Shown piece after piece: positions 4,958-22,778 of a stretch of DNA of 64,000 nucleotides (positions are counted from its first letter, which is position 1; the number at the start of each line of letters is the position of its first letter). The translations under genes were made by a program, and so were the position numbers. This DNA is from an uncultured Opitutaceae bacterium (GTDB lineage Bacteria; Verrucomicrobiota; Verrucomicrobiia; Opitutales; Opitutaceae). The notes under the pieces were generated by a model. The model was given only the letters and a program-made list of their open reading frames with translations. It did no database searches and had not been told where the DNA came from. The stretch spans positions 124,001-188,000 of the forward strand of contig CALFNN010000010.1 in assembly GCA_937902925.1 (NCBI GenBank), given 5' to 3'.

Positions 4958-7666
4958 ATGCGAAGTGACCTCGTCCGAGTAATTATCTTCTTCGCCGGCG
5001 CCGTGGGTGGAATGCTCCGCGCCGAGCCGGTGCGCGTCGTCATCGACACCGCCGCCGTTCCGCGCGTCGAGTATGGCGCCGGCCAGCTGGTAGCCGCGCT
5101 GCAGGCGACGGGATTGGAGGCCGCGCTCTCGCGCGGACCGGTCGCGGTCTCCGGTGCACCGACGGTGGTGGTCGGCAACGTGCAGCAGTCCGCGGTGAAG
5201 GCGCTGGTCGATGCAAACGAAATCACGCTCGCGGCCGGCGAGCCGGGACCGGAGGGCTTCGTGCTGGCGACGTGCCGGGGCGGTGTCACCGCGGTGGCGG
5301 GTGGCGACGATTCGGGCGCACTCTACGGCTGCATGGAACTCGCGCGCCGCGTGCGCGAGAGCGGGCGGCTTCCGGCGCAGTTGCGCTTTGCCGACAAGCC
5401 GGCGTTCGTCCTGCGCGGGCCCTGCATCGGGATGCAGAAGACCTACATCCTGCCCGGCCGGCACGTTTACGAATATCCCTACACGCCGGAGCTGTTCCCG
5501 TTCTTCTACGACAAGGCGTTCTGGCGGCAGTATCTGGATTTCCTCGCGGAAAACCGGATGAACACGCTCTACCTGTGGAACGGCCACCCGTTCGCGTCGC
5601 TCGTGAAGCTCAAGGATTATCCGTATGCGCTCGAGGTTTCCGACGAGGACTTCGCGAAGAACGTCGCGATGTTCCGCTATATCACCGAGCAGGCCGACCG
5701 GCGCGGCATCTGGCTGGTCCAGATGTTCTACAACATCATTCTCTCGAAACCGTTCGCCGAGCACAACCACCTCGCGACGCAGCTCCGGGCGCCCAACCCG
5801 ATCGCCGCGGACTACACGCGGAAGTCGATCGCCGAATTCGTCCGCCAGTATCCCAACGTCGGGCTGATGCCGTGCCTCGGCGAGGCGTTGCAGGGGACAG
5901 CCAACCAAATCGACTGGGCGACCAACGTCATCCTGCCCGGCGTGCACGACGGGATGCGGCAGGCCGGGCTCACGGTGGAGCCGCCGGTCGTTTTTCGCAC
6001 CCACGCGATGGACCCGGTCGCGATCATGCCGGCGGCGTTCAAGGTCTACGGGAATCTCTTCACCATGACGAAATTCAACGGGGAGTCGCTGACGACGTGG
6101 GAGCCCCGCGGGAAAAACCAGGCGACGCATCTCGCGATGGCCAAACTCGGGCCGCACGTGGTGAACATTCACATTCTCTCCAACCTGGAGCCGTTCCGCT
6201 ACGGGGCGACGCGTTTCATCCAAAAATCCATGCAGGCGGCACGCGACCGGCTCGGAGCGACCGGCGTGCATCTTTATCCGCTGTCCTACTGGAACTGGCC
6301 GGATGCCCCGGACAAGACCGCGGTCCCGCTCAAGCAACTGGACCGCGACTGGATCTGGTTCGAGGCGTGGGCGCGCTATGCCTGGAATCCCGACATCGCG
6401 CCGGCGGCGGATGAGGCGTATTGGACCGGCCGGCTCACCGAGCGTTACGGTTCGGCGGCGGCCGCGGCACCGATCCTCGAAGCCTACAATAATGACGGCG
6501 AGGTCGCGCCGCGGCTCATCCGGCGCTTCGGCATCACCGAGGGCAACCGGCAGACCCTCTCGCTCGGCATGACGCTCGACGAACTGGTTCATCCCGAAAA
6601 ATACGGTGTGCTGGCGGACCTCTGGGAGTCGCAGTCGCCCCCGGGCGAGCGGCTGCAGGATTACGTCGAGAAGGAATTCGCGCATCAGCCGCACGAGGGC
6701 GAAACGCCGCCGCAGATCATCCGCGCGGTGGACGAGTTTTCGCAGCGCGCGGTGGACGAGCTCGCCGCGGCGGCGCCAAGCGTGACGAAAAACCGCGAGG
6801 AATTCGACCGCCTGCGCAACGATGCCGCGTGCATCCGGGCCATGGCGCTGAATTACGGGGCGAAGGCGGAGGCGGCGCTGCATGTGCTGCGCTACGCCCG
6901 CAACCACGACGTCGCCGAGATGGAACAGGCGCGCACGGCGCTCGCGCGCAGCCTCGAAAGCTATCGCACGCTCGAGCGGCTGACCCGCGACACCTATGTC
7001 TATGCGAACTCGATGCAGACGAGCCAGCGGCGGATTCCCGTCGTCGGCGGAGAGGGCGGCCAGCCGGCGAATTTTCACTGGACCCAGTTGCTGCCGGTCT
7101 ATGAAAAGGAATTCGCGGACTTCGACGCACAGGTGACCGCCCTCAAATCCGGCGGTCGAGCCGCCGCGCAGGCGCAGTTGCTGGCGACCATGACCGCCGC
7201 GCCGTTCCGGTTGCTGGGCCGGGGTGCGGAAGTCTACACGGTGAAAGTGGGTGCGCCGGTTTTCACCGACGTGCGTGCCCCGATCCAGGCGGTCGCGTCC
7301 GAGCTCGACGGGCTCAAGGGCATTCGTTTTTCGAACGAGGCGGCGAAGGCGGGACGTTACGAACCGATCGAGTTTTCGACCGCAGGGCCCGTGCGGGTGC
7401 TGATCGGATATTTGAAGGCGGACGATCCCGCGTGGCGCCGCCCGCCCTCCTCCGAGACCGACGCCGCGGCCGCGGAGCGTGGAGGCACCGAGCCGTTGCT
7501 GGTGAATGCCGTCACGATTCCGACGCTCCCGGCGGTCGACGTCTATGAACTTTCGTTCGGTGCCGGCCGCCACCGGATCGATCCGCCCGGGTCGGGCAGC
7601 TTCCTCGTGCTCGGCGTGGTCCGGGCCGCCGCCGCGGTGGAGCCGGGCGGCATGCCGGCTCCTTAA
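4958..7666 (+). CDS. secreted alpha-glucuronidase-like glycoside hydrolase (GH67/GH115-like)
   Basis: 902 residues starting MRSDLVRVIIFFAGAVGGMLRA, a short signal peptide. Residues about 24-150 resemble the N-terminal domain shared by GH67, GH115 and GH20 enzymes (nucleotide-fold-like, ending PAFVLRGPCIGMQK). Residues about 180-500 look like a TIM barrel (FWRQYLDFLAENRMNTLYLWNGHPF, GIWLVQMFYNIIL, YPLSYWNWPDAPD). A long, largely helical region follows, then a beta-rich C-terminus. The length and order suit alpha-glucuronidases that remove terminal uronic acid from plant glycans; the exact family and substrate are not certain. It is followed after 37 bp by the LacI regulator and is probably cotranscribed with it. 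Operator-like palindromes precede it. Confidence 0.65.
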   Translation: MRSDLVRVIIFFAGAVGGMLRAEPVRVVIDTAAVPRVEYGAGQLVAALQATGLEAALSRGPVAVSGAPTVVVGNVQQSAVKALVDANEITLAAGEPGPEGFVLATCRGGVTAVAGGDDSGALYGCMELARRVRESGRLPAQLRFADKPAFVLRGPCIGMQKTYILPGRHVYEYPYTPELFPFFYDKAFWRQYLDFLAENRMNTLYLWNGHPFASLVKLKDYPYALEVSDEDFAKNVAMFRYITEQADRRGIWLVQMFYNIILSKPFAEHNHLATQLRAPNPIAADYTRKSIAEFVRQYPNVGLMPCLGEALQGTANQIDWATNVILPGVHDGMRQAGLTVEPPVVFRTHAMDPVAIMPAAFKVYGNLFTMTKFNGESLTTWEPRGKNQATHLAMAKLGPHVVNIHILSNLEPFRYGATRFIQKSMQAARDRLGATGVHLYPLSYWNWPDAPDKTAVPLKQLDRDWIWFEAWARYAWNPDIAPAADEAYWTGRLTERYGSAAAAAPILEAYNNDGEVAPRLIRRFGITEGNRQTLSLGMTLDELVHPEKYGVLADLWESQSPPGERLQDYVEKEFAHQPHEGETPPQIIRAVDEFSQRAVDELAAAAPSVTKNREEFDRLRNDAACIRAMALNYGAKAEAALHVLRYARNHDVAEMEQARTALARSLESYRTLERLTRDTYVYANSMQTSQRRIPVVGGEGGQPANFHWTQLLPVYEKEFADFDAQVTALKSGGRAAAQAQLLATMTAAPFRLLGRGAEVYTVKVGAPVFTDVRAPIQAVASELDGLKGIRFSNEAAKAGRYEPIEFSTAGPVRVLIGYLKADDPAWRRPPSSETDAAAAERGGTEPLLVNAVTIPTLPAVDVYELSFGAGRHRIDPPGSGSFLVLGVVRAAAAVEPGGMPAP

Positions 7667-7703
7667 CCTGCAGCGCAATTCCCGTCCGCTAAACCTCAAG
7701 ATC

Positions 7704-8789
7704 ATGGCAAAGAAAAAACGAATGACGATCACGGACGTGGCGAAAGCCGCCGACGTGGCCCTCGGCACGGTGTCGCGGGTGTTGAACAATCATCCGGATG
7801 TGAATTCGGAGATTCGCGTGCGGGTGCTGGAGGCGGCGCGGGCGCTCAACTACACGCGCATCCGGCAGAAGAAAAGCAACGGGGCGCGGGTGAACGGCGA
7901 CGGCGTCGTCGGCAACATCGCGGTCATCTTCTTCGGCATGGAGGACACGCTGGCGCAGTTGCCGATCGTCGGGGCGGCATTGCAGGGCATCGAGGGTGCG
8001 CTCTCGGGCCACGGGCGGAATCTCATGCTGGCCAGTATTCCGAAAGGCGACCGCGTGCCGCCGTTCCTGATGGAAAAACGCATCGAGGGGTTGATCCTGA
8101 AAGGACCGAACCAGGGACTGCTGCCGTCGCCCGCGGAGTGCGAGCTGCTCGCGCACATTTATCGCTGGCCGCACGTGTGGCTGATGGGCCACCTTGCCAA
8201 TGCGCGCGGCGACCATTGCAACTTCGACACCGACGCCGCGGGCCGCCTCGTGGCGGAGCACCTGAATGAGCGCGGGCACCGGCGGGTCGGGTTCTTCAAT
8301 CCCAAGCCGGGGCAGAACCAGTTTGAAAAGCTCAAGAGTTCGTTCAGCAACTTTGCCGCGCGCCTCGGCTGCGAAGTCACCCTCCTGGAGGCCGAGCCGT
8401 CCGACCGGTTGATCTGGCCGCTGCCGGCGACGACGGTGCAGCACAAGGTGAACGCGCTCGTCGACCAGTGGATGGCGTCGCCGGCGAAGGTGCGGCCGAC
8501 GGCGCTCTTCGTGCCGTCGGACCGGACGGCGGTGCAGGTTTACTCGGCGCTGGAACGCCGCGGGCTGCGGGCCGGGGTGGACGTAAGCGTTGTCTCGTGC
8601 AACAACGAGCTGTCGCTGCTGGCGGACCTGCATCCGGCGCTGACGACGATCGACGTTCACGCCGAATACACCGGCCGGCGCGCGGTCGACCAGCTGTTGT
8701 GGCGGATGCGGCATCCGGACGAGCCGCTTTCGATGCAACTGCTCGTCGAACCGACGCTCGTGGAGCGCGATTCCGTGGTCGTGCTCTGA
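7704..8789 (+). CDS. LacI-family transcriptional regulator
   Basis: 361 residues from the ATG at 7704 (MAKKKRMTITDVAKAADVALGTVSRVLNN). A longer in-frame extension upstream overlaps the preceding gene and is not used, because the DNA-binding domain normally begins at the N-terminus. Residues 7-53 form the LacI helix-turn-helix with the hinge region after it. Residues about 70-361 form the periplasmic-binding-protein-like effector domain (VGNIAVIFFGMEDTL, HLNERGHRRVGFFNPK, PTALFVPSDRTAVQVYSALERRG, HAEYTGRRAVDQLLWRM). It is the only LacI regulator in the window. The palindromes at 4837, 18946 and 22761 are plausible operators. The effector is unknown, probably a sugar or sugar acid from the same pathway. 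Confidence 0.92.
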   Translation: MAKKKRMTITDVAKAADVALGTVSRVLNNHPDVNSEIRVRVLEAARALNYTRIRQKKSNGARVNGDGVVGNIAVIFFGMEDTLAQLPIVGAALQGIEGALSGHGRNLMLASIPKGDRVPPFLMEKRIEGLILKGPNQGLLPSPAECELLAHIYRWPHVWLMGHLANARGDHCNFDTDAAGRLVAEHLNERGHRRVGFFNPKPGQNQFEKLKSSFSNFAARLGCEVTLLEAEPSDRLIWPLPATTVQHKVNALVDQWMASPAKVRPTALFVPSDRTAVQVYSALERRGLRAGVDVSVVSCNNELSLLADLHPALTTIDVHAEYTGRRAVDQLLWRMRHPDEPLSMQLLVEPTLVERDSVVVL

Positions 8790-8811: not shown

Positions 8812-10728
8812 TCAGGGCGCGGCGGCCGTGCGCTGACGCGCCGCGGCCAGATTGCGGCGCGCCTGCATGTAGTCGGGCCGGACGCGCAACGCGGCCTCGA
8901 AGTGCGCGATGGCTTCTGGCATCCGGCCGGCGTTGACCAGCATGGAGCCAAGGTTGTTGTGGGCCTCGACGAAATCGGGGTCGAGGCCCAGTGCGGTTTC
9001 AAACTGTGCCATCGCCTCAGCGGAATGGCCGGCCTGGGCGAAGGCGTTGCCGAGATTGTAGTGAGCCGTCGCGAAGCCGGGGTCGAGTTGCACGGCGGCC
9101 TGGTCGTGGGCGATGGCGTCCGCGACGCGCCCGGCGGCGAGCAGGGCGACGCCGAGATTGTTGTGCGTCATCGCCTGGTGCGGCTGCAACTCGAGCGCGC
9201 GCTCGAAACTCGCGATCGCAGCCGGCAGCGCGCCGGTCTGGAACTGTGCCTGGCCGAGATTGTAGTGCGCGTCGGCGAAGTCGGGCTTCAGGCGCAGCGC
9301 GGCTGCGAGCGGTGCGAGGGCGTCCGCCGGCCGGCCGGACTGGATCAGCGCGGCGCCGAGATTGTTGTCGGCCTCGGGATAGGCGGACTTGAGGCGGAGT
9401 GCGGATTCAAACTGGACAATCGCCTCGGGAACGCGGTGGTCGCGAAGCAGCGCCCCGCCGAGATTGTTGTGGGCGCGCGCGTTTTCCGGACGCTTCGCAA
9501 TCGTGTCCGTCCAGAGCGCCACGTCGGTGCGATAGTCGAAGTTGCGCTGCCAGGTGGCCACGCCCAGCGCGACGGCGACCACCGGCCACGCGAGAAGTGT
9601 GCGTCGGCCGAAAATCCGATAGAGTCCAATCACGAGCAGCGCGATCATGGCGACGAGCGGTAGATACATCCGGTTTTCCGCGGTTGGTTGCTGGATGATC
9701 GGCACCACGCTGGACGACGGCGAGAGGATCACGAAGAACCACGCGCCCAAGAATCCGAGCATTGGCCGCCGCCGGAGCGCGAGTGCGGCGGTGGCGAGGA
9801 GCAGCCCGAGCGCAACCGCCCACGGTGCGGCGGCGGCGATGCCACCCACGAAGTCCCAGCCATAGTCGAACACGAGCGGATGCGGCCAGAGCGCGAGCCG
9901 CAGGTAGATCAACACGGCGCGGCATTCGGTCAGCGCGTAGTCAAACGAGGAAACGCCGAGTGCGTAGCCGACGCCGCGATCCGCAAGGCGTGCGTCCAGC
10001 ATGCACGTGGTCAAGACCAGCCACGTGGCGGCGAGAGCCAGATGCAGCCGCCCACGTTGCCGCCACGCGGCGCGGATCGACCCCGCGACGAACGTGCGGT
10101 CGAATAGCAACGTCATGACTGGCGCCGTCACCATCACTTCCTTGCTCGCCATGCCCAGCGCGCAAGCGGTCACGGTGGCGACGGGCCACCAGCGCGAAGC
10201 CGATTGGGTGCTGCGAATGAATCCATAGAGCGTCGCGAGGTAACATAATCCCATCAGGGCCTCGACGCGCTGCGAGAGGTAGTCGACCACGTTCGTCGCC
10301 ACCGGATCAAGCGCCCACAACCCCGCCGCCGACAGTGCCAGCAGCGACGCATCGCGACCGAAACGTTCGCGCAGCGCGGGCAGCAACAACGTGCGCCGGA
10401 TCACGCCGAACAGCGCCAGCACGGCCAGCGTGTGAATGAGCAGGTTGCCGACGTGATAGCCGCGCACGTCGAGGCCGCCGGCGGCGTAGTTGCACGCGAA
10501 GCTGAGATTCGCCAGCGGCCGCCCGCGGACACCAGCCGCGATCGGCGGGCTCAACAGGGAGCCGGGCGGCCAGAGCTGGCGGATGGACGTGTTCTCGAGG
10601 ATGGCGGACTGGTCATCGAAGACGAACGCGCCGGAAAAACTATTGAGATAGGCCGCGAGGGTCGCCCCGACGAGCACGGCGAGCGCAAGCGCGGTCCGGG
10701 CGGGGTTGCTTGATGGGGGAGCGACCAT
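8812..10728 (-). CDS. TMTC-like membrane glycosyltransferase with TPR repeats
   Basis: 638 residues from the ATG at 10728. The first 400 or so are strongly hydrophobic with about nine to ten predicted membrane helices, beginning ARTALALAVLVGATLAAYL. The segment AFVFDDQSAILEN carries the Asp-Asp pair seen in TMTC-type and related GT-C mannosyltransferases. Residues about 415-638 are six to seven tetratricopeptide repeats (ARAHNNLGGALL, ADNNLGAALI, AHYNLGQAQF, THNNLGVALL, AHYNLGNAFA, AHNNLGSMLV). A role in protein O-glycosylation in the envelope is possible. It starts 42 bp after the sialidase-like gene's stop, so it may be the last gene of that operon, and converges with the LacI gene. Its link to sugar degradation is unclear. 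Confidence 0.75.
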   Translation of the reverse strand: MVAPPSSNPARTALALAVLVGATLAAYLNSFSGAFVFDDQSAILENTSIRQLWPPGSLLSPPIAAGVRGRPLANLSFACNYAAGGLDVRGYHVGNLLIHTLAVLALFGVIRRTLLLPALRERFGRDASLLALSAAGLWALDPVATNVVDYLSQRVEALMGLCYLATLYGFIRSTQSASRWWPVATVTACALGMASKEVMVTAPVMTLLFDRTFVAGSIRAAWRQRGRLHLALAATWLVLTTCMLDARLADRGVGYALGVSSFDYALTECRAVLIYLRLALWPHPLVFDYGWDFVGGIAAAAPWAVALGLLLATAALALRRRPMLGFLGAWFFVILSPSSSVVPIIQQPTAENRMYLPLVAMIALLVIGLYRIFGRRTLLAWPVVAVALGVATWQRNFDYRTDVALWTDTIAKRPENARAHNNLGGALLRDHRVPEAIVQFESALRLKSAYPEADNNLGAALIQSGRPADALAPLAAALRLKPDFADAHYNLGQAQFQTGALPAAIASFERALELQPHQAMTHNNLGVALLAAGRVADAIAHDQAAVQLDPGFATAHYNLGNAFAQAGHSAEAMAQFETALGLDPDFVEAHNNLGSMLVNAGRMPEAIAHFEAALRVRPDYMQARRNLAAARQRTAAAP

Positions 10729-10770: not shown

Positions 10771-12633
10771 CTATTTCTCGGGTGTGATTAGCACGTCGTC
10801 GACGAGGAAGACCGCGGCCGGTGCCTTCACGTCCGCGCCCGGCGCCTCCTTGCCCGCAAAGCCGGTGCGGCGATAGGCGCCGGTGCGGAACGAGAGCCGC
10901 TCGACACTCGTGACGGGTTCCGTGAAGACGGCGGCGCGGGCGAGCGGCGACTTGCCGTCGACCCGCACGTCGACGCGGTCGGCGGTGAGCGCGCGGGGGA
11001 TTTCGAGATTGAAGGTCGTCCAGTGCCCGGGCGTATAGGCGCCGGCGTCGTTCCATACGCCTTCATGGCAGGCCCAGAGGTGGCCGTCCTCCTCGAATGC
11101 GAGGCGCACGGGGCGCGTGCCATGGCCGTCGAGAATCTCGATGTCGAGCCGGGCGTCGGGCTGCTCCGCGAGGACCTTGAAGCTGATCCGCACGCCGTGC
11201 GTCTCGGGGAAAATGCGGATGGCGCGCGCGTAGTCGGAGGGATCCTCGTCGCGCAGCTCGAGCGCGCGGCCGGCTTTCGCGGCGGCCTCGGCGGGGAGGC
11301 CGGCGTCTTTGACGTCGACGACGCGGACGGGAGCCCAGGCGGGACTGTAGATATTCCAGCCTTCCGGCAGGCTGCCGGCGGGGGTCGATTCGAAATTGTC
11401 GTCGACCGGCGCATCGACACGACCGCGAATCGGCACGGGCACGCGGCTGACCCAGATGTCCTCCTTGTTGACACTGTAGGCGATCCAGGTGGCGCGGGCG
11501 GAGTCGGGCGGCGTGCCGTTGCCCTCGACGATGCCGCGGGTGTATTGGGGGCCGATGTTCTTGAACTTGCCGGGAAAACGCTGGTCGGGCAGTTCGCCGT
11601 GCACGGTGAGCAAACCGGAGAAGTTCGCGCAATCGTCGCTCGTCATCACGGCGAGCGGGTAGCGCAGGCGGTCGGTGGGATTGAGGAAGAGCGCGTAGCG
11701 GCCGTCGCCGGTGTGCGTCAGCCAGTATTTCGAGGCGTTGTTCGGCATGTTCGCGGCCTGCAGCTGGCGCGACCACGTGCGGCCGTTGTCGGTCGTGACG
11801 GCGGTGAGCGCATTTTTCCAGATGCCGAGCACGGAGCCGTCGGGGCGGTGCACGAAGGAGAACGCCCGGCCGTGGATCGAGAAGAAGCCGTCCTCGGTCA
11901 ACTGGTCCTCCTCCCACCACTGGGTGGTCATGAGTTTGTTGGCGAGGAGCGCGTCGCAGGCGGCGACGAAACCGGCGTCGGGGGAAGTTTTGTAGAGGGG
12001 ATAAGTCTGATTGGGACCACGATCCGCCCACGGGCTGTGCAGGCCATAACGGATGAAATAGATCGGACCGAAGCCGCCATCCTCGTGAATCTCGCGCACG
12101 ACGCGACCGACGCCCGTGCCGTCGTTCGGCGAGGGCTCCTTGCCGTGGAAGCCGAGCACGAGCAGCCGGCCGTCGGGCGCGACGTAAAACGCCATCCGCT
12201 GGTGCATGTCCGACATGCTGCCGTCGGGCAGCTTGATGGCGGGAAAGACCGTGCGCGGCGCCGCCCAATGCACGCCGTCGGGCGAGGTGGTGAGCGAATC
12301 GGAGCACGGCGCCTGGCTCTCGTCGCGCGGGCCGCTGAGGTATTCGAGGTAGAATTTGCCGCGCCACCACGCGAGCATCGGCTGGTGGAGGTAGGTGTCG
12401 GTGAGATGGTCGAGGTGGGTCGGTGCGGTGCGATTGGCCCGGTAGACCTGGATGTTCTGCACGCCGACCGCGAGGCGGAGGCCGCCGTCGGCGCTGGTGT
12501 CGGGGCGGACCGAGTCGGTGTAGGTGACGACGGGTTTTTCCGCGGCGCGGACCGCAGGCGCGACCGGAAACAGGGCAGCGAGGCCGGCGAACGTGAGGCG
12601 GGAGAGGGAACGTAAAATTGCTTTCGGCGGCAT
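10771..12633 (-). CDS. secreted sialidase-like beta-propeller protein with C-terminal laminin-G-like domain
   Basis: 620 residues starting MPPKAILRSLSRLTFAGLAALFPVAPAVRA, a signal peptide. Residues about 50-400 form a BNR/sialidase-like propeller with two clear Asp-box-like motifs (SPDGVHW, TTDNGRTW). Residues about 410-620 look like a beta-sandwich of the concanavalin/LamG type (DDNFESTPAGSLPEGWNIYSP, WTTFNLEIPRAL, VFLVDDVLI). No gene in the operon other than this one appears to encode an exported hydrolase. Because sialidase folds often act on ulosonic acids, an enzyme that frees DHA or KDO from pectin is an attractive but unproven role. A lyase or phosphorylase on a similar propeller is also possible. 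The gene lies 12 bp after the symporter gene. Confidence 0.75.
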   Translation of the reverse strand: MPPKAILRSLSRLTFAGLAALFPVAPAVRAAEKPVVTYTDSVRPDTSADGGLRLAVGVQNIQVYRANRTAPTHLDHLTDTYLHQPMLAWWRGKFYLEYLSGPRDESQAPCSDSLTTSPDGVHWAAPRTVFPAIKLPDGSMSDMHQRMAFYVAPDGRLLVLGFHGKEPSPNDGTGVGRVVREIHEDGGFGPIYFIRYGLHSPWADRGPNQTYPLYKTSPDAGFVAACDALLANKLMTTQWWEEDQLTEDGFFSIHGRAFSFVHRPDGSVLGIWKNALTAVTTDNGRTWSRQLQAANMPNNASKYWLTHTGDGRYALFLNPTDRLRYPLAVMTSDDCANFSGLLTVHGELPDQRFPGKFKNIGPQYTRGIVEGNGTPPDSARATWIAYSVNKEDIWVSRVPVPIRGRVDAPVDDNFESTPAGSLPEGWNIYSPAWAPVRVVDVKDAGLPAEAAAKAGRALELRDEDPSDYARAIRIFPETHGVRISFKVLAEQPDARLDIEILDGHGTRPVRLAFEEDGHLWACHEGVWNDAGAYTPGHWTTFNLEIPRALTADRVDVRVDGKSPLARAAVFTEPVTSVERLSFRTGAYRRTGFAGKEAPGADVKAPAAVFLVDDVLITPEK

Positions 12634-12645
12634 GGGAAATGGGAA

Positions 12646-14181
12646 TTACGCGCGGCTTCGTTTGAGCCAGCCCCACAGCGTCATGTCACGGCAGATGGGA
12701 GCGGGCGCAGGAAAGAGGTAGCTGGCCAGATAGCCCACCACGAGCAGCACGACATGGGCGAACACGCCGATCATGATCGGGGCGAGGGTGAAATTGCCGG
12801 CCCCGAGGTCGAGCACCGGGGCCTTGCCGCTGGTCAGCGTTCCCCACGTCGTGAACAGCAGGCACGCGATGATGCCGGCGGCGGCGCCCTGCCGATTTGC
12901 CCGCGGCGAGAGAAAGGCCAGGAGAAAGAGGCCGGCGAGGCCGCCGGCGACGATCGAGGACGTCGTAAACCAGAACGACAGCACGCGTTCGGATTTCCAC
13001 GCGATGATGACAGCGACCCCGACGGCGAGCGTGCCACAGACCCCGACGATGAGCTTGCCGACGGCGAGGCGGCGGGCGTCGGTGGCGTTAGGACGCAGCC
13101 GGCGGTAATAATCCTCGACGCCCACGACCGAGAGGCAGTTGAGGTCGGACGAGAGCATCGACATCGCGGCGGAAAACAACGATGCCATGAACAACCCGGC
13201 GAGACCCGCGGGGATCTTGGTGGTCAGGAAATACGGGAAGATTTGATCGGGCTTGGTGATCGAGGCCGGCAGCATCTCGTGCGAAAGCTGGTAGTAAGCC
13301 CAGACGAGTGTGCCGATGAGCATGAAGAGGGTCCACGCCGGGATGCAGAGCAAGGCGCCAAGCGCGACACCCTTGAGCGCGTCGCGGTCCGTCTTGGCGA
13401 CGAGGTAGCGCTGCACGAGGGTCTGGTCGGCGGTGTATTGCTGCAGGTAGCGGAAGAAGCCGTAGAGCGACATGACCCAGATGCTGCTCTTGTCGGCGAG
13501 ATTGAAGGCGGGGTTGCCGAGGCTGAATTTGTGATTGTGCGCCGCGAGCGAGAAGGCGGCGCCGATGCCGCCGGGCATTTGGGTGCACAGCCAGCCGAGA
13601 CACACGACCACGCCGATGACCTTGACGAAACCCTGGATGACATCCGTCCAAATCACCGCCTCGAGCCCGCCGATGACGGTGTAGTAGATCGTGATGGCGC
13701 CCGTGCCGACCATGACGAAATAGATGTTCCAGCCCGTCATGCTCGAAACGGTCAGCGCCGTCGTGTAGAAAACGAACCCCATCTTCGAGAAATGGCCGAG
13801 CGTGAAGGCGAGCCCGCTGTAGGCGCGCACGCCGTAGCCGAAGCGCTTTTCAAAGTATTCATAGGCGCTCATGCCGACCGCGTGGCGGAAAAACGGAATG
13901 ATCACGGTGCCGACGAGGATCAGCGCGCCCACGACCATGAAGCCGGGCACGAGCTCGCTCCAGTTCCCGGCATACGCCGAACCGGGATAGGCGATGAAGG
14001 TGATGCTGGTGATGAGCGCGGCGTAGATCGAGATGCCCATCGCCCAATGCGGCACCGAGCGCTTCGCCACGAAGTAGGCCTCGGTCGTCGTCTGGCGTCG
14101 CGCGAACCAGCGGCCGACCGCCAGCATGGCGACCATGTAAACTGCGATGACGAAGAAATCGAGCCAGCGAAGGGTGGTCAT
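12646..14181 (-). CDS. sodium:solute symporter (SSS family)
   Basis: 511 residues from the ATG at 14181 (MTTLRWLDFFVIAVYMVAMLAVGRWFA). An upstream in-frame ATG adds a non-hydrophobic, proline-rich extension overlapping the upstream gene and is not used. About 13 membrane helices are visible. Family features include FVAKRSVPHWAMGISIYAALITSITFIAYPG in the first helices and the TADQTLVQRYLVAKTD segment in the middle. SSS proteins import sugars, sialic acid and other carboxylates with sodium. Its position between cytoplasmic acid-sugar enzymes and a secreted sialidase-like protein suggests uptake of the released acidic monosaccharide. It follows the PdxA2 gene by 40 bp. Confidence 0.93.
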   Translation of the reverse strand: MTTLRWLDFFVIAVYMVAMLAVGRWFARRQTTTEAYFVAKRSVPHWAMGISIYAALITSITFIAYPGSAYAGNWSELVPGFMVVGALILVGTVIIPFFRHAVGMSAYEYFEKRFGYGVRAYSGLAFTLGHFSKMGFVFYTTALTVSSMTGWNIYFVMVGTGAITIYYTVIGGLEAVIWTDVIQGFVKVIGVVVCLGWLCTQMPGGIGAAFSLAAHNHKFSLGNPAFNLADKSSIWVMSLYGFFRYLQQYTADQTLVQRYLVAKTDRDALKGVALGALLCIPAWTLFMLIGTLVWAYYQLSHEMLPASITKPDQIFPYFLTTKIPAGLAGLFMASLFSAAMSMLSSDLNCLSVVGVEDYYRRLRPNATDARRLAVGKLIVGVCGTLAVGVAVIIAWKSERVLSFWFTTSSIVAGGLAGLFLLAFLSPRANRQGAAAGIIACLLFTTWGTLTSGKAPVLDLGAGNFTLAPIMIGVFAHVVLLVVGYLASYLFPAPAPICRDMTLWGWLKRSRA

Positions 14182-14221
14182 GGGGAAGGGGTTTGAGGCG
14201 GGCGGGAAAGCGCGAGCGAGT

Positions 14222-15238
14222 TCAGGGTGGAGGCGGCGGGGCGGCGCGTGCCATGATGGCGGCGAGCTTGATCGCCTCATTCAGGCTGCGCGGATCGGAT
14301 TTGCCGGTGCTCGCCATGTCGAAATTGGTGCCGTGCTCGACGGAGGTCCGCACGATGGGCAGGCCGAGGGTGACGTTCACGCCGCGCCAGATGCCGAGCA
14401 TCTTGACGGCGACGTGGCCCTGGTCGTGAAACATCGCGACGACGGCATCGAATTCGCCGTTCAACGCGCGGAAAAAAACCGTGTCGCCGGGATAGGGTCC
14501 GGACGCGGCGAGGCCCAGGCGCTGGGCCTCGGCGATGGCGGGCTCGATGAACCTGGCCTCCTCGTCGCCGAAGAGTCCGTGCTCGCCCGCATGCGGATTC
14601 AGGCCGGCGACGGCGAGGCGCGGTCGCTCGATCCCGAGCCGGCGGACGGCGTCGTGCGTGAGCTCGAGAACTTTCAAGATGCGCTCGGGTTTGACGCGCT
14701 CGATGGCGACGCGCAGCGGCACATGCGTGGACACGTGGCTGACGCGCAGGCCCTCGGCGGCGAGCATCATCGTGGCGCCCGGGGAATTGCAGAGGTGGGC
14801 GAGGAGCCCGGTGTGACCGTCGTAGTGGTAACCGGCCTGGTTGAGCGACTCCTTGTTTATCGCCGAGGTGACGATCGCCCCGACGCGACCGGCGAGCGCC
14901 AGCTCGGTGGCGGCCTTGATGTATTCGTAGGCCGCCTTGCCGGCCATCGGGTCGACCCGGCCGGCCTGGAGTTTCGCGAGATCGAGGTTCGCGAGGTCGA
15001 GCACGTCGATTTCGCCGGGGCCCGCGCCGGCTTCGGCCACGTCGCGGATGGGGCGGATCGAGAGTTTCACCCCGGTGTAGCCCAGCGCACGGGTCATCAT
15101 GGCCGCATCGCCGACGACCACCGGACGGCAGAGCGCGCGGATTTCGGGCAAGGCGAGGGATTTCGTGATGATTTCCGGCCCGGTGCCGGCCGCATCGCCC
15201 ATGGTGATCGCGAGCAACGGAGGAGAAAGGGCGGTCAT
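14222..15238 (-). CDS. pdxA2: PdxA2-type four-carbon acid-sugar 4-phosphate dehydrogenase
   Basis: 338 residues from the ATG at 15238, whose first bases overlap the stop of the upstream kinase gene (ATGA). It has the PdxA signatures TMGDAAGTGPEII near residue 12, GHTGLLAHL, NPHAGEHGLFG and FHDQGHVAVK; the three His residues in the last three motifs match the metal ligands of PdxA. In families studied so far, PdxA2 proteins beside DUF1537 kinases oxidise and decarboxylate D-threonate or D-erythronate 4-phosphate to dihydroxyacetone phosphate, rather than acting in pyridoxal phosphate synthesis. The kinase directly upstream makes that the likely role here. Cytoplasmic, NAD(P)-dependent by family. 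Confidence 0.88.
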   Translation of the reverse strand: MTALSPPLLAITMGDAAGTGPEIITKSLALPEIRALCRPVVVGDAAMMTRALGYTGVKLSIRPIRDVAEAGAGPGEIDVLDLANLDLAKLQAGRVDPMAGKAAYEYIKAATELALAGRVGAIVTSAINKESLNQAGYHYDGHTGLLAHLCNSPGATMMLAAEGLRVSHVSTHVPLRVAIERVKPERILKVLELTHDAVRRLGIERPRLAVAGLNPHAGEHGLFGDEEARFIEPAIAEAQRLGLAASGPYPGDTVFFRALNGEFDAVVAMFHDQGHVAVKMLGIWRGVNVTLGLPIVRTSVEHGTNFDMASTGKSDPRSLNEAIKLAAIMARAAPPPPP

Positions 15239-16452
15239 GGGAGATTGGACTGCGCGGAGGTCGAGGGAGTGGGGCGGGATTGGAGAACGTGCTGCCACAA
15301 AGCCGAGGGCCAGGCATAACTGCCGGGCTTCATGGTCACCACCAGCGGGATCCGGCCCGCGGGGCGGAGAGATGCAACGCCCGTGGCCCACTCGTGGGCA
15401 AGCCGTAGTTCGTGCCAGCCGAGCGCGCGGGTGATGGTTGCCGCGGTCGCGCCTCCCTCGACGACCAGGTGCTGGAACGCACGCCGGTCGACCAACCCGC
15501 GAACGCCGTCGGCAAACGCCGTGCGAATCGCGGTTGCGAGGCGCGGGTCGGACGAGTGCGGTCCATCGAACACGGCGACGGCGTTTCCGGCCGCGGAGAG
15601 TTGAGTTTGCAGCGCCGTGATCCACTGCCGGACAACGGGTGACGCCGCCGAAGAATCGGACACGGCCTCCGCCGGCATCGGCACGATCGGCACGCCGTCC
15701 CGCCGACTGGCGTCGCGCAGGACTTTTCCAGCGGAGCTGGCGGTGCCGGAAATGATCAACGTCGGGGCGCCGGGCGAAAACGCCGCCGGCCGGGCCACCG
15801 GTGCGAAGCCGTGCGCGGCGAGCAGGGCGGCGAAGAATTCTCCGCCGCCGGCCGGCAGGGTTTCGGCGGCGAGGCCGCGCGCCCAGCCGACGAGGTCGGC
15901 GGAACTCGTCGCGTTGCCGGCGATGATTCCGCCGGTGGGGCGCGGGTCGGTCGCATTGAGGACAGCGACAGGGAGCGTTCCGTTCGGGCCGAGCAGGTCG
16001 CGCACGGAATCGGTCGCTGCCGGGTGGTGCGGATCATGGGCGAAGGTCGTTTCGTGCAGCGGCACGCCTCCAACCGAATAGCGCCCGTCGCGCACGGTCC
16101 GGCCCAGGGCCGGATTCGCGGACACGAGCACGATGCGCCCGCGACCGAGGCCGGACGCGAGCGATTCCAACTCGACCCGCACGGCGCCGCGCAGGACGGA
16201 ATCGGTCTTCTTGTAGACGAGCGCTGGCGGCCGGGCGGCGATGACGCGTGCGAGCGCGGCGAGTTTTTCCGCGGCGACGGCGGGCGGATCGAGCCGCGTG
16301 TCGGTGTCGAAAACCACGAGCCCCGTATCGCCCGGCGGCAGCTCGAAATTCGAGACGACCGCCGCCGCGAGTCCGTGGCGGTGACCGATGGCCGCGATCT
16401 CGGCGGCCCCGGTGAGGTCGTCCGCGACTGCGATGATGGGAACCCGCGCCAT
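15235..16452 (-). CDS. DUF1537 four-carbon acid-sugar kinase
   Basis: 405 residues from the ATG at 16452 (MARVPIIAVADDLTGAAEIAAIG). Longer upstream in-frame sequence is antisense-like and overlaps the aldolase gene. The N-terminal ADDLTGA motif and KKTDSVLRGAVRVEL are typical of the DUF1537 sugar-binding domain. The C-terminal nucleotide-binding half shows LIISGTASSAGKVL, VVEGGATAATI and VVTMKPGSY. The family includes kinases for D-threonate, L-threonate, D-erythronate and 3-oxo-isoapionate. Immediate coupling to PdxA2 (4-bp overlap) favours D-threonate or D-erythronate as substrate, giving the 4-phosphate. It starts 5 bp after the stop of the DapA-family gene. Confidence 0.9.
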   Translation of the reverse strand: MARVPIIAVADDLTGAAEIAAIGHRHGLAAAVVSNFELPPGDTGLVVFDTDTRLDPPAVAAEKLAALARVIAARPPALVYKKTDSVLRGAVRVELESLASGLGRGRIVLVSANPALGRTVRDGRYSVGGVPLHETTFAHDPHHPAATDSVRDLLGPNGTLPVAVLNATDPRPTGGIIAGNATSSADLVGWARGLAAETLPAGGGEFFAALLAAHGFAPVARPAAFSPGAPTLIISGTASSAGKVLRDASRRDGVPIVPMPAEAVSDSSAASPVVRQWITALQTQLSAAGNAVAVFDGPHSSDPRLATAIRTAFADGVRGLVDRRAFQHLVVEGGATAATITRALGWHELRLAHEWATGVASLRPAGRIPLVVTMKPGSYAWPSALWQHVLQSRPTPSTSAQSNLP

Positions 16453-16457
16453 GAAAC

Positions 16458-17363
16458 TCAGAGCAGACCGAAGGCGGCGGCGGCCTGGCGAATGGATTCG
16501 CGCTCCGCGGCACCCAGGGTCACCAACGGCGGGAGCATCGCCGCGGTGCAAAGCCCCTGGGAGGCGATGGCGGCCTTCAAGGCCGCGAGCGACTGCGCGA
16601 GCGAGCGATCCCGCTGGACGATCTCGCCGATCGCGTCGAGCCGGGCCTGGGTCGCCTCGGCCTGCGGCCATTCGCCCGCCCGCACATGCGCATATAAATC
16701 GCGCCAGAGCGCGGGGGCGATGTTGCCAGAACTCGGGACGGCGCCGTTGAAGCCGGCGCGGAAAGCGCGCGTCGCGTTTTTCGCGACCCCCATGAAGATG
16801 GCGAAGTTGGCGCGGCCGCCAAAACGCTCCGCGACGGCCTCGAGCCGGCCGGGGGTTCCCTCCGAGTCTTTCAGGCCAACGACATTGGGCAGCGTGCTGA
16901 GCCGGTCGATGACCTCGAGCGGAAGGGACATGCGCGTCGTCTGCGGCATGTTGTAGATCAAGAGCGCCCCGGGAATATCGCGAGCAATTCGTTCGAGGCA
17001 GGCGTGCATTTCACCGGGGGTGAGGACGTAGTAGGCGGGAAGAAGGGAGACCACGGCGTCGACGCCGAGTTGAATGTAGCGGCGGCCCATCTCGATCGCG
17101 CTGCTGACGCAATCCGAACCGATGCCACCGTAGACGACGACGCGGCCGGCCGCGGTCTTGACGGCGATCTCGACGAGTCGCTCGCGTTGCGCCGCGGGAA
17201 TGGAGGGCGCCTCGCCGGTCGTGCCGAGCACGAAGACCCCGAGGCCATGGTCGGCCAGGCGCGCGACCATGCGCTCGGCGGCAGCCTCGTCCAGATCCCC
17301 GGACGTGGTGAAGGGCGTGCTCATCGGCACGACGATGCCGTGGTGTTTGGCGGAGGAAGTCAT
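16458..17363 (-). CDS. DapA/NanA-family pyruvate-dependent aldolase
   Basis: 301 residues from the ATG at 17363; the start overlaps the stop of the upstream Fe-alcohol dehydrogenase gene (ATGA). The protein has the family motifs GTTGEAPS (residues 47-54), YNMP with catalytic Tyr137, and GLKDSEGT with Schiff-base Lys165. The superfamily includes dihydrodipicolinate synthase, sialic acid lyase and 2-keto-3-deoxy-acid aldolases. Its place in a catabolic operon with an acid-sugar kinase argues against lysine synthesis and for cleavage of a 2-keto-3-deoxy acid into pyruvate and an aldehyde. DHA (3-deoxy-D-lyxo-2-heptulosarate) is proposed as substrate because its second product would feed the rest of the operon. 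Other keto-deoxy acids are possible. Confidence 0.88.
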   Translation of the reverse strand: MTSSAKHHGIVVPMSTPFTTSGDLDEAAAERMVARLADHGLGVFVLGTTGEAPSIPAAQRERLVEIAVKTAAGRVVVYGGIGSDCVSSAIEMGRRYIQLGVDAVVSLLPAYYVLTPGEMHACLERIARDIPGALLIYNMPQTTRMSLPLEVIDRLSTLPNVVGLKDSEGTPGRLEAVAERFGGRANFAIFMGVAKNATRAFRAGFNGAVPSSGNIAPALWRDLYAHVRAGEWPQAEATQARLDAIGEIVQRDRSLAQSLAALKAAIASQGLCTAAMLPPLVTLGAAERESIRQAAAAFGLL

Positions 17364-18586
17364 GGGTGAAATGCGTTGCGATAGATTTGCTCCGCGTCGG
17401 CCAGGGTGACCTCGCGGGGATTGTTCTGGAGGAGACGAGTGACCTTCATCGCGTCGGCCGCCATGTGCGGGATGGCGTCGGCGGGCACGCCGTGAGTCGA
17501 CAGCCCGGCGGGAATCCCGCATTCGGCGCACAAGGCCGACAGGCGGTCGGCGCCGAGAGCGGCGGTCGCGAAGGCGTCGCCGGTGTCGGCAACGCCCAGT
17601 GCGCGCGCGACGCCGGCGTAGCGCCCGGGCGCGGCGGCCAGGTTGAAGCGCACCACGTGTGGCAGAAGCAGCGCGATCGACAGGCCGTGAGCCAGACGGA
17701 ATTCGCCGCCGAGCGGGTAGGCAAGGGCGTGGACCGCGGCAGTGTTGACGGGGCCGAGGCAAAGGCCGCCGTAAAGACTGCCGAGCGAGATCGCGCAACG
17801 CGCGTCGAGATCGTCGCCGTGATCGACCGCGCGTTTCAAGTGGGACGCGATCAGTTTCACGCCTTCCAAGGCATAGAGGTCGATCAGCGGATGGGCCGCA
17901 CGATTGGCGTAGGCCTCGAGGCAGTGGGCGAGCGCATCGATGCCAGTGGCGGCCGTGAGGGCGGGCGGCATGGTCACGGTCAATTGGGGATCGATGAACG
18001 CCGCGTCGGGCACGAGAAACGGACTGATGACTGCCTTTTTTAACCGGGCCGTCTCGTCATAGAGAATCGCGTTGGGCGAAACCTCGCTACCCGTTCCGGC
18101 GGTCGTCGGCAGGCAAACGAGAGCGAGAGACCGGGAGGGCAGAAGGCCGCTGCCGAAGAATTCGCGCACCGACTCGGTCCGGCCATGGAGCGCGGCGACG
18201 AGCTTGGCCACGTCCAGGACGCTGCCGCCGCCAAATCCGACGACGGAGTCGAGCGATAGGCCTCGGGCCGTCGCGAGGATGTTTTCCAGGCTTGCGACGC
18301 CGGGTTCCGGGGGAATTCCAGAAAGCGGGGTGGTGGCGATGCCGTGCTGATTCAGTTGGGCGAGAAACGCCTGCACGGCATTTTTCGTGGCGGAGGAATG
18401 GATCACCAGCACGCGGCGGCGGCCTTGTTGGACGAGGTGAGGTCCGACCTGGGTGGCGCAACCGACGCCAAATCCGATCGTGGCGGGCTGCCGGAGAACA
18501 AGGCTTCGGTGGGAACTCAAGATCACAAGGCGGGAGCAGCAGTCGGCCGGGGGCGTTTCATCGCAAAAGGCGTTATGTATTTTCAT
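17360..18586 (-). CDS. iron-containing (group III) alcohol dehydrogenase
   Basis: 408 residues from the ATG at 18586; the true start may be a GTG at 18526, because residues 1-20 (MKIHNAFCDETPPADCCSRL) do not look like family sequence and the ATG lies inside an operator-like palindrome. NAD-binding GGGSVLDVAK is at residues 120-129. The metal ligands Asp217, His221, His286 and His300 have the same spacing as in lactaldehyde reductase FucO. The enzyme would reduce an aldehyde or oxidise an alcohol with NAD(P)H. As first gene of the operon, before an aldolase, it probably handles the aldehyde released by aldol cleavage, here proposed to be reduced to D-threonate. Lactaldehyde reduction is an alternative. 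Confidence 0.9.
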   Translation of the reverse strand: MKIHNAFCDETPPADCCSRLVILSSHRSLVLRQPATIGFGVGCATQVGPHLVQQGRRRVLVIHSSATKNAVQAFLAQLNQHGIATTPLSGIPPEPGVASLENILATARGLSLDSVVGFGGGSVLDVAKLVAALHGRTESVREFFGSGLLPSRSLALVCLPTTAGTGSEVSPNAILYDETARLKKAVISPFLVPDAAFIDPQLTVTMPPALTAATGIDALAHCLEAYANRAAHPLIDLYALEGVKLIASHLKRAVDHGDDLDARCAISLGSLYGGLCLGPVNTAAVHALAYPLGGEFRLAHGLSIALLLPHVVRFNLAAAPGRYAGVARALGVADTGDAFATAALGADRLSALCAECGIPAGLSTHGVPADAIPHMAADAMKVTRLLQNNPREVTLADAEQIYRNAFHP

Positions 18587-18602
18587 GAAATAATACAGTC
18601 AA
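18574..18602 (-). promoter_or_regulatory. possible promoter of the Fe-ADH operon
   Basis: On the minus strand TTGACT (18602-18597) is followed after 17 bp by TACATA (18579-18574). The palindrome TTTCATGAAA lies in the spacer. If this promoter is used, the transcript begins near 18566 and the ATG at 18586 is upstream of it, which supports the GTG at 18526 as start. An alternative -10 (TATTAT, 18595-18590) has no good -35. Confidence 0.4.
18581..18590. promoter_or_regulatory. TTTCATGAAA operator-like palindrome
   Basis: A perfect 10-bp palindrome in the spacer of the possible Fe-ADH promoter, where a bound repressor would block RNA polymerase. On the minus strand the surrounding 15-mer TATTATTTCATGAAA repeats exactly at 4734-4748. 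Confidence 0.6.
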
Positions 18603-18945: not shown

Positions 18946-18963
18946 TTGTTTCATATGAAACAA
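18946..18963. promoter_or_regulatory. 18-bp perfect operator palindrome upstream of TonB gene 1
   Basis: TTGTTTCATATGAAACAA is a perfect palindrome found again, base for base, at 22761-22778 in the same position relative to a second TonB gene (55 and 53 bp before the start codon). It lies about 33 bp downstream of a TTGACT hexamer, so it probably overlaps or follows the transcription start. Confidence 0.75.
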
Positions 18964-19018: not shown

Positions 19019-22000
19019 ATGAAAACAAATCCGTTTGTTGCATGGAGTGGAGGCCTTTGCCGCCGGCTGCAAAGTTTCCGCTCCTTTCCCCGCTATTGGT
19101 CGTGCGCGCTCCTCGGCGCTGGCTTCGTCCTTGTCACAACCGCGCCGATGCGCGCGCAGGGTGCCCGTGGCGCGATTATTTCCGGCCGCGTCCAGAGCGC
19201 CGTTTCCGGCAATTATCTCATCAATGCAAGGGTCCGCGTTGCGGGCACCAATCTCGAGGCGTTCACGGACGCGGCGGGCGAATACCGGCTTGCCGGGGTG
19301 GCGGCCGGCCAGGCAACCCTCGACGTCTTCTACACGGGCATGGCGGAGCAAAAGCTCCTCGTCAGCGTGCCGGCAGCCGGCTCCCTGACGCAGGACGTGT
19401 CGCTGCGCGACATCGGATCCGAAAACGGCGCCGTGGTCATGAGCCAGTTTGTGGTGCAAAGCCAGCGGGAGACCGACGCTGCGGCGATCGCGATCAACGA
19501 GCAGCGGTTTGCCCCCAACCGGAAGGATGTCGTCGCGACGGATGCGTTTGGCGACATCAACCAGGGCAACATCGGCGAGTTCGTTAAATTCATCCCGGGC
19601 ATCTCGCTCGATGTGAAGGACGGCAACAGTCCCTCCGGAATCATGATTCGCGGCTTTGACCCGAACTATACGAACGTCACGATGGATGGCGGGCAGCTCG
19701 CCAGCACGCAGATTGCGAACACCCAGACAGGATCGCGCGGGTTCCTGCTCGAGCAGGCCAACATCAACAATCTCTCGCGCATCGAGGTGACGAAGCTTCC
19801 GACCCCGGACATGTCGGCCAATCTGCTCGGTGGGGCGGTGAATTTCGTGAGCAAGAGTGCCTTCGAGCGAGCGCGGGAGGAACTTCGGTTCCAGGTGTTC
19901 TTGTCGGCCAATACGAAGGCGATGGACTTCAGCCAAACCCCGCTCCCCGAGCATGGGGACACCTATAAGGTGCGGCCGAGTTTCGATCTCACCTATGTCA
20001 AGCCGGTGAGCAAGCGGTTGGGGTTTGTCGTCAACGTCTCGCAGTCGAGCCAATACTATCTGCAAAACAAGGCGGTGCCGGGCAGCCGCTACACCAGTGG
20101 CGGCGCGACGCTCGCGAATCCGCAGATCGTGTCGATGTCGACGAGCTATAATCCCAACATTATCGACCGCACCTCGGGCTCGATCAAAGTCGATTGGAAG
20201 CCGGCCGACCGCAGCGTCCTCTCGTTCACGGCGGATGCGAACGCCAACCGGCAGCAGAATGCAAGCCGCAGCCTGAGCTACAGCGTGGGTGGCGGCACGC
20301 CGGTCAAATGGGACCAGCACAACACGTTTGGCTCGACCGGCGCCTCCGGCACGGGCTCGGCGAACGAGGGCAACAGCTACCAGAACCGGAACGGCCTCTT
20401 GCGGCACCTCGCGTCGAGTTGGACTTACACCGGCAGCGACTGGGATTTTGACCTGGCCGGCAGTTGGTCAAATTCGAACAATCGCGTGCGCGACACGGCC
20501 AAGGGCTTCTTCAACGGTATTTCGACCAGCCTGCCCAATGTGAAGACCGTCAACCTGCAGGATGTCGACAATTCGAAGGCGTCATTCGGCAGGGCGACCG
20601 TGCTCGACGCCAACGGCAACCCAATCAACGAACTGAAGCTTGCGAGCTACAATCTCGGCCAGCTGACCAGCCAGCCGGCGGACAACGAGGACAACGTCAA
20701 GGAAGTGCGCGGCAATGTCGCGCGCCACCTGACCTTCCTCGCGAATCCGGTGGTGCTGAAGGTCGGTGGATCCGTCAACGACATGACCCGCGATGCGCGG
20801 TATACGGCCGTCTACACGAATTATGCGGGACCGGACGGGATTTTGAACAGCGGCGACGAATCGGCTGCGCCGTTTGCGGACAAGAGCGACCTGAACCGCA
20901 GTCCCGGCTACGGGAGGCCGGGCCCGGAGTGGGTTGATCCGTGGAGCGTCTATCAGGCGACCAAGGATCATCCCAACTGGTTTGTGAGCACGCCGAAAAA
21001 TCAAGGCGACCAGATCAAGAATTACGCGGTGCGGTCGCCGTGGTTGCATGAGACGATCCAGGCGGGCTATCTCATGGCCGACACGAAGTTTTTCCAAAAC
21101 CGCCTGCGGCTCGTGGGTGGCGTGCGCTACGAGAAGACGATCGACGAGGGCCGGGGCTACAAGCAGGACGGCAATGCGATCTACGTGCAGGATGCGGATG
21201 GTCACCCGGTCAAGGACGCGGGCGGCAAATATATCCTGAAGCCGGAACTGGCCGGCACCCTCAGCGGCGGCCCCGAGCAAAACGCGCTGATCTATCAGTT
21301 CCGCGGGACCTACAATAAACGGGACTACGCCTACTATTTTCCGAGTGCGCACGCGACGTTCAATCTCACGGACAATCTGCTGCTGCGCGCGGCGTTCGCG
21401 CGGACGATGGGCCGCCCCAACATTTCGGACACCGTGCCGAACGTCTACGTGGGCGACAATATCAACTACGGGATTGCCGGCAGTTCCTCGGCCAGCATCC
21501 CGGGTTACATCGTGACCAACAACTCCACGCTGCGGCCGTGGACCGCGAAGAACTACGACTACTCGCTCGAATATTACCTGCCGCGAAACGGGCTGATGAG
21601 TTTCAACTTCTACAAAAAGGACATTCGCGACTTCTTCAGCACGCTCCATGAGGTGGCGGACATTCCGTTGCTCGATTCGCTCGGCATCTCGCACGACGCG
21701 GTGGGTTACGATTACCAAACCCGCATCAACATCAGCGACGCGATGATCAAGGGCTGGGAGGCGACGATCAACCTGCCGCTCGAGAATCTCACCGCCTGGG
21801 GGCCGTTGGAGCGCTTCGCGCCGTTTGCGCGGCATTTTACCGTGATGCTCAATACGACCCATCTGCAGCTTTCCGGCTCGCGTATCTCGGCCAGCGACTG
21901 GAAGCGCTACATCCCACGGTCGCGCAACGCGCAACTGCGCTTCCATTTTGGCAAGCTGTCGGGCAACGTGCTCGTCAACTGGCGGGGCAAGATGCTGCGC

Positions 22001-22760: not shown

Positions 22761-22778
22761 TTGTTTCATATGAAACAA
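22761..22778. promoter_or_regulatory. 18-bp perfect operator palindrome upstream of TonB gene 2
   Basis: TTGTTTCATATGAAACAA, identical to the site at 18946-18963, placed 31 bp after the TTGACA hexamer. It would overlap or immediately follow the transcription start, as expected for a repressor roadblock. Confidence 0.75.

Follow-up and report, generated by a model that had tools for sequence, protein, structure and literature searches.

A six-gene operon on the minus strand of DNA from an uncultured Opitutaceae bacterium probably represents the intracellular catabolic branch for 3-deoxy-D-lyxo-2-heptulosarate (DHA) in a rhamnogalacturonan II (RG-II) utilization locus; we put the probability of this at about 0.78. 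It lies at positions 10771-18586 of a 64,000-nucleotide stretch (the window) of contig CALFNN010000010.1 (assembly GCA_937902925.1). The operon combines a propeller of glycoside hydrolase (GH) family 143, a DHA-releasing family, which is homologous to PDB entry 5mqr, with an aldolase, a dehydrogenase, a kinase and a PdxA-type enzyme whose genes recur as a block beside GH143 in several phyla. These observations back, without proving, the DHA pathway put forward in an original prediction made from this DNA. Slightly less certain, and still favoured, is the wider reading of a dedicated pathway shared across phyla, with a new aldolase activity in a KDSE clade, a new D-threuronate reductase and D-threonate as an intermediate.

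For the release of DHA from RG-II an enzyme is known; what bacteria then do with DHA is the gap addressed here. The original prediction knew of no DHA catabolic pathway, and none was found in a literature search of titles and abstract beginnings, nor in the portion consulted of PMC12168206. Four named enzymes and an exact stereochemistry render the hypothesis of bacterial DHA use directly testable; it would also give functions to genes so far annotated by family alone, and it offers the KDSE aldolase beside GH143 as a marker for locating DHA users. DHA also occurs in green algal scales (PMC10762512), so aquatic bacteria with related genes may obtain it elsewhere. If the hypothesis is true, RG-II, and perhaps such scales, would be a natural source of D-threonate for DUF1537/PdxA2 enzymes.

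Gene content of the operon

Six minus-strand genes, mostly overlapping or closely spaced, had been predicted; they are present in the predicted positions and order, and each is backed by Pfam. The iron-containing alcohol dehydrogenase (Fe-ADH; 17360-18586; PF00465, 1.8e-39; PF25137, 5e-49), a proposed D-threuronate (tartrate semialdehyde) reductase, overlaps by 4 bp a class I aldolase of the DapA/NanA superfamily (16458-17363; DHDPS/DapA, PF00701, 1.7e-50), the proposed DHA aldolase. After 5 bp follows a DUF1537 sugar-acid kinase (15235-16452; PF07005, 5.1e-33; PF17042, 5.9e-10), a candidate D-threonate 4-kinase, which in turn overlaps by 4 bp a PdxA2-type dehydrogenase (14222-15238; PF04166, 2.9e-105), proposed to act on 4-phospho-D-threonate; starts and stops were checked for all the overlaps and gaps given here. 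A sodium:solute symporter (SSS; 12646-14181; SSF, PF00474, 4.8e-39; TIGR00813 above cut-off), the putative DHA importer, lies 40 bp further on, and 12 bp beyond it is the gene of a secreted propeller of 620 aa (10771-12633; PF24067 Beta-prop_BT_1020, 8.5e-80; PF22585, 3.7e-29), a proposed DHA hydrolase for RG-II side chain D. The family-search query for the kinase (15235-16449) was one codon short of its start at 16452, and that for the SSS protein (12646-14193) ran four codons beyond its start at 14181. The annotated ATG of Fe-ADH (18586) falls inside a palindrome at 18581-18590, so the true start may lie downstream. In NCBIfam the aldolase, kinase and Fe-ADH stay below every cut-off, which leaves them family-level names, and the propeller has no match. 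A gene for a tetratricopeptide repeat protein with a weak PMT_2-like region (8812-10728) comes next on this strand, 42 bp beyond GH143.

The propeller and its GH142 partner

The propeller, described earlier as sialidase-like, is by Pfam and phmmer a member of GH143, the DHA-hydrolase family, and corresponds to the N-terminal family of BT_1020. Its residues 42-589 match residues 35-576 of 5mqr/5mqs (E 2.8e-113), the sole PDB sequence that phmmer found; by the Pfam name this protein is presumably BT_1020 of Bacteroides thetaiotaomicron. A plus-strand gene at 26179-27747, with relatives close to GH143 in many loci, matches residues 616-1102 of 5mqr (phmmer, E 2.5e-171), presumably the GH142 half; its product is thus a GH142 homologue, a putative beta-L-arabinofuranosidase that would strip the arabinose capping DHA in side chain D. 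BT_1020, again by the Pfam name, is presumably also the two-site enzyme for which GH143 was created. Both halves of the GH143-GH142 protein BT_1020 therefore have homologues in the window, where they are two separate genes and where GH143 shares an operon with catabolic enzymes.

According to PMC6811678, family GH143 was established on the basis of a B. thetaiotaomicron enzyme with two sites, which removes arabinose from RG-II side chain D and subsequently releases DHA; in a table of PMC7761036 the activity given is DHA hydrolase for GH143 and beta-L-arabinofuranosidase for GH142. Judged by eye, the propeller begins with a Sec-like signal peptide. Residues Y81, Y364, E105 and E181 are invariant among 19 relatives and are no more than candidates for the Tyr/Glu catalytic pair reported in PMC6811678.

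The proposed route

Outside the cytoplasm GH142 would take off the capping L-arabinose, the secreted GH143 would then free DHA, and the SSS symporter would bring it into the cell. There the aldolase would cut DHA between C3 and C4 into pyruvate and D-threuronate, Fe-ADH would reduce the aldehyde of the latter to D-threonate, the DUF1537 kinase would convert this to 4-phospho-D-threonate, and PdxA2 would oxidize C3 to give a beta-keto acid, which would lose CO2 and leave dihydroxyacetone phosphate (DHAP). Such a route would be redox-neutral, because one reduction and one oxidation balance, and would yield two three-carbon units per one ATP. A LacI-type repressor would probably control the locus. 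For this organism we infer the substrates and reactions throughout, as well as the import of DHA and the identity of the regulator.

Would the product be D-threonate? In the D-lyxo configuration C4 points left, C5 left and C6 right, and cleavage between C3 and C4 leaves, besides pyruvate, OHC-CHOH-CHOH-COOH. With the aldehyde reduced and the chain turned so that COOH is C1, C2 points left and C3 right, which is D-threonate. This hand derivation reproduces the stereochemical result that the original prediction had drawn from lyxo DHA.

It is proposed that the known D-threonate branch is here joined to an aldolase and a reductase for DHA, in a galactarate-like manner. Catabolism of D-threonate by DtnK and PdxA2 was reportedly described by Zhang in 2016. 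In the GarL-GarR-GarK route for galactarate and glucarate, an aldolase splits a keto-deoxy-aldarate into pyruvate and a semialdehyde acid, and a reductase and a kinase follow. The DHA route would be the seven-carbon counterpart, with the same aldolase-reductase-kinase order; it differs in its C7 rather than C6 substrate, in its enzyme families and in the extra oxidative decarboxylation by PdxA2. PMC10971088 credits DUF1537 with D-threonate and D-erythronate kinases, PMC10079672 has a kinase and a dehydrogenase convert D-threonate to DHAP, and both cite the DtnK and PdxA2 system. The window holds the same two families, adjacent, with the same last steps proposed; it adds the aldolase and reductase upstream and a tie to a polysaccharide sugar, and its sequences fall below the DtnK and PdxA2 cut-offs.

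Family assignments

The kinase carries both SBD_N and NBD_C domains above the Pfam cut-offs and is thus a DUF1537 family member. Its best NCBIfam match is D-threonate kinase, where it reaches 91 bits against the 450 of the DtnK gamma model; this weakens its identity as a DtnK, not its possible action on D-threonate. The PdxA paralogue adjoins the DUF1537 kinase and a second PdxA is found elsewhere in the genome, which fits a PdxA2-type enzyme, although it scores 332 bits against a cut-off of 583 for the equivalog PRK03371 (D-threonate 4-phosphate dehydrogenase). The SSS family includes sialate transporters, and in the window's own family an SSS symporter accompanies the four enzyme genes at all 13 loci that have them, at either end of the block.

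The aldolase (residues numbered from 17369) belongs to the DapA/NanA class I superfamily, since the Schiff-base lysine K167, Y139 and GTTGE (49-53) are invariant among relatives (14 and 16 compared). At the Schiff-base lysine the sequence K-D-S-E, together with R175 and Q252, is found in 35 of 35 block aldolases, that is, the window and 34 loci, seven of which repeat genomes. Only the KDSE string is taken as specific, as R175 is also present in Escherichia coli DapA. The same site reads KQTS in E. coli NanA, KDTI in YagE and KEAT in DapA, and KDSS in DapA-family genes that lie near GH143 without kinase or PdxA (L128, L151). In a phylum search the 12 top matches are KDSE and the next 18 are KDSS (17) or KDSA (1); this comparison covered 30 loci of 51 matches, and 10 of the 12 KDSE sequences had already been sampled.

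An AlphaFold2 model of the aldolase (mean predicted local distance difference test score, 93.7) is closest among solved folds to N-acetylneuraminate lyase (NAL) 5c54 (E 1.5e-23), with dihydrodipicolinate synthase (DHDPS) and YagE close behind. NanA thus shares the superfamily and the nearest fold, whereas its signature and its downstream enzymes differ, and the window protein stays under the nanA equivalog (82 vs 382 bits) and PRK04147 (96 vs 281 bits). It also remains under the DHDPS equivalog dapA (132 vs 206 bits), and the genome has its best DHDPS match at C39. Signature and fold support a class I keto-acid aldolase, with no particular substrate favoured. In a plasmid collection the closest matches are about 31% identical (best 15 of 405 records).

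Conservation of the gene block

The block of four genes (Fe-ADH, aldolase, DUF1537 kinase and PdxA) is complete beside GH143 on 24 distinct contigs, the window and two phylum genomes (G257, G301) included, in Verrucomicrobiota, Planctomycetota and Bacteroidota, with differing gene orders; phyla of relatives are those of the record titles. Of 150 genomes of the window's own family, 40 have a PF24067 match (30 with E<1e-50), and all four genes lie beside GH143 at 13 of 34 fetched places; at one further locus (L058) the contig ends after PdxA. Species genomes were scanned with a GH143 alignment, and the best 80 of at least 576 relatives were searched by tblastn with the window proteins at 1e-8. 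All four genes are present in 15 of these loci, two in 4, one in 6 and none in 55. Seven of the 15 duplicate the DNA of own-family loci; the new ones include L110 (Planctomycetota), L112 (Verrucomicrobia subdivision 3) and two from Bacteroidota (L159, L166), in which the block accompanies GH143 and GH142 in differing orders. Where GH143 is at least 50% identical to that of the window (17 of the 80), all four genes occur in 10 loci, PdxA at a contig end in 2 and none in 5; in the other 63, all four occur in 5. Fe-ADH, aldolase and GH143 share a 4-kb contig titled Gammaproteobacteria (L138). Among 20 arbitrary 20-kb control stretches from eight family genomes, Fe-ADH was met once, a weak SSS match once, and aldolase, kinase and PdxA never; no stretch holds more than one block gene.

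Does the aldolase occur without GH143? Over the 150 family genomes an aldolase profile (E<1e-70) finds 22 of 30 strong-GH143 genomes and 1 of 120 others (Fisher 1e-18, relatedness ignored); in the single exception, G045, the block (L078) adjoins a gene weakly resembling GH143. The eight strong-GH143 genomes without it are G007 (a fragment, 1.5e-55), G022, G025, G087, G121, G138, G142 and G145. In G138 (L075) the end of a contig carries the kinase, PdxA and Fe-ADH as a group, with no aldolase match between PdxA and Fe-ADH. In 387 phylum genomes there are 12 aldolase matches below 1e-90, all KDSE, and 11 lie beside GH143. The twelfth (L225) has no PF24067; it has a complete block and symporter, adjoined by isomerase and transketolase genes that share 70-73% identity with the window's, and a GH2 and an AraC regulator are present. 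DUF1537-PdxA pairs without aldolase and Fe-ADH were found in genomes lacking strong GH143 (L067-L070, L072), a distribution that would follow from a general tetronate module for the last two steps and specificity of the first two.

The block at L077 (G079) looks frameshifted or fragmented, with PdxA in two pieces and short Fe-ADH and kinase matches, and L092, a record under the name Akkermansia muciniphila, is identical in DNA to L051 (G097:C1) from a genome of the window's own family, so that its title is probably a misassignment.

Weighing the DHA reading

Several observations weigh against a DHA pathway. The substrates rest on family, because kinase and dehydrogenase are well under their NCBIfam cut-offs; the aldolase fold fits NAL, DHDPS and 2-keto-3-deoxygluconate aldolase alike; and one of the 11 phylum aldolases beside GH143 (G301) has an internal TGA. 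Within the window's own family, 20 of the 34 GH143 places fetched lack the block. In 13 of these GH143 is 39-47% identical and in seven 55-63% (L036, L048, L049, L053, L054, L055, L064), and six of those seven have GH142. Four of the seven (L049, L053, L054, L055) are of genus g8, where G081 (L084) and G139 (L080) hold a variant block elsewhere, G104 has aldolase and kinase 4 kb apart and G007 has fragments only; G013 (L036) likewise has a variant block elsewhere (L081). G142 (L048, 83% complete) and G087 (L064, 93%) have neither kinase nor aldolase, and G025, listed as 100% complete, lacks such an aldolase despite having GH143. The species scan adds the 55 of 80 loci with none of the four genes, nine of them shorter than 10 kb; GH143 is at 39-49% identity in 50 of the 55 and at 50% or more in the other 5, out of 17 loci that similar. 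The term 'complete pathway', used in the original prediction, is fair for the enzyme set, but many GH143 carriers lack the block nearby.

The block aldolase might also, or instead, serve 3-deoxy-D-manno-octulosonate (Kdo). Kdo is an RG-II constituent (PMC12168206) and is cleaved by E. coli NanA (PMC13220900). As the genome's one other strong DapA-family match is dapA-like, there is no other obvious Kdo lyase, and a GH33-like and GH78 pair at 29476-34240 could free Kdo. That Kdo of side chain C is the main substrate, giving pyruvate and D-arabinose, with the tetronate enzymes serving otherwise, is nevertheless improbable: the block is repeatedly accompanied by GH143 and often by GH142, the families of the DHA chain, and its kinase and PdxA are needless for D-arabinose. 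A dual role is a minority possibility with rather more to commend it, and is compatible with DHA catabolism; DHA would pass through kinase and PdxA, and the D-arabinose of Kdo through isomerase and kinase genes at 40755-45542. DHA and Kdo have, by hand comparison, the same configuration at C4-C6, and the genome has one candidate aldolase. Against this, the genes at 40755-45542 appear more apiose-like, with a split transketolase and apiosidase-like genes nearby.

Could the chemistry differ instead? The DapA-family protein matches the KdgD profile (86.7 bits, cut-off 374) and might be a KdgD-type dehydratase/decarboxylase on DHA, with kinase and PdxA for free D-threonate or D-erythronate, as the lone DUF1537-PdxA pairs would allow. 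This would leave Fe-ADH without a role, and 34 of the 35 KDSE aldolases share their locus with Fe-ADH, kinase and PdxA, the exception being the short contig L138; we consider it a little less probable even than Kdo as the main substrate. Equally doubtful is another sugar acid, perhaps a C6 keto-deoxy-aldarate, handled in the same manner, the proximity to GH143 reflecting co-selection in pectin loci. Pectin is a source of uronates, the assignments are family-level, and L225 has the block without PF24067; yet the C6 homologue would give tartronate semialdehyde and glycerate, for which PdxA2 is unneeded, and the block recurs with GH143 across three phyla. Hardly credible is a role of PdxA and its neighbours in vitamin B6 synthesis. 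PdxA does exceed the TIGR00557 pdxA cut-off (357 vs 290 bits), but a second PdxA exists in the genome, and the genes around this one encode enzymes of catabolic type within an RG-II locus. This role was set aside on the strength of the second PdxA; no search for PdxJ or other B6 genes was made.

Palindromes and a putative LacI repressor

The window holds four copies of the palindrome TTTCATGAAA, where 0.06 would be expected. One copy, a putative LacI-family operator, lies over the annotated Fe-ADH start (18581-18590), one between two TonB receptor genes (22421-22430) and two before the alpha-galacturonidase and LacI genes (4811-4820 and 4734-4743, with a relative at 4839-4852). A perfect 18-bp palindrome, TTGTTTCATATGAAACAA, whose half-sites are those of TTTCATGAAA, precedes both TonB-dependent receptors, at 18946-18963 (receptor 1, 19019-22237, plus strand) and 22761-22778 (receptor 2, 22832-26053, plus strand). 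The LacI-family regulator (7506-8789, plus strand; PF00356, PF13377), whose true start is probably inside the frame, is the proposed repressor of the locus. By its match to the consensus, the LacI-type palindrome would putatively link the operon start, both TonB receptors and the galacturonidase.

A LacI protein 58-63% identical is found in 7 of the 34 fetched GH143 loci. The motif was scanned for in 24 chosen loci, of which L100 and L103 repeat L041 and L039, leaving 22. It lies beside the block, LacI or a TonB gene in five of the seven loci with the LacI relative in view (not L036 and L046), and in only one of the 15 without it (L101, directly before an isomerase gene).

Other genes of the RG-II locus

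The window is an RG-II utilization locus. On the plus strand it carries an alpha-D-galacturonidase (4958-7666; NF049878, 1049 bits, cut-off 1300), present near GH143 in several loci, a candidate GH137-like beta-L-arabinofuranosidase (33831-35387; NF049877 positions 17-355 of 1400, E 4e-115, 386 bits, cut-off 1800), a GH141 (37841-39730; PF21231, 3.9e-52) and a GH127 of the aceric acid hydrolase type (58767-60824; NF049879, 934 bits, cut-off 950; PF07944). The three NCBIfam matches are strong, and all are under their cut-offs. GH141, GH137 and GH95 are families with RG-II roles, and the matched part of the NF049877 model is presumably its GH137 half. The window also has GH78, GH95 and four apiosidase-like proteins (DUF5060/Apiosidase/DUF5605; 27773-29470, 53867-55543, 55565-57145, 56737-58743), three of these in succession.

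At 29476-34240 a protein with GH43-like and sialidase-like (BNR_2) parts overlaps a GH78 gene, and several Bacteroidota loci have relatives of the two close to GH143; the window's pair could be the rhamnose-Kdo pair of side chain C, the first being a Kdo hydrolase. An isomerase (Fucose_iso_C), a split transketolase, an FGGY kinase and an ABC sugar transporter lie at 40755-49797, a set that resembles apiose catabolism; relatives adjoin the block in L225 and are found near GH143 in L104, L121 and L101. Two neighbouring Sde182/nucleoside-hydrolase-like proteins (51086-53844) also lie inside the locus. A minus-strand frame at 2358-4796 joins an FGE-sulfatase-type domain to a BNR_2 propeller, and since a TTTCATGAAA palindrome falls within its 5' end, its start may be downstream. 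In relatives, three GH143-type genes per locus are found in L110, L124 and L126, which suggests further substrates within the family.

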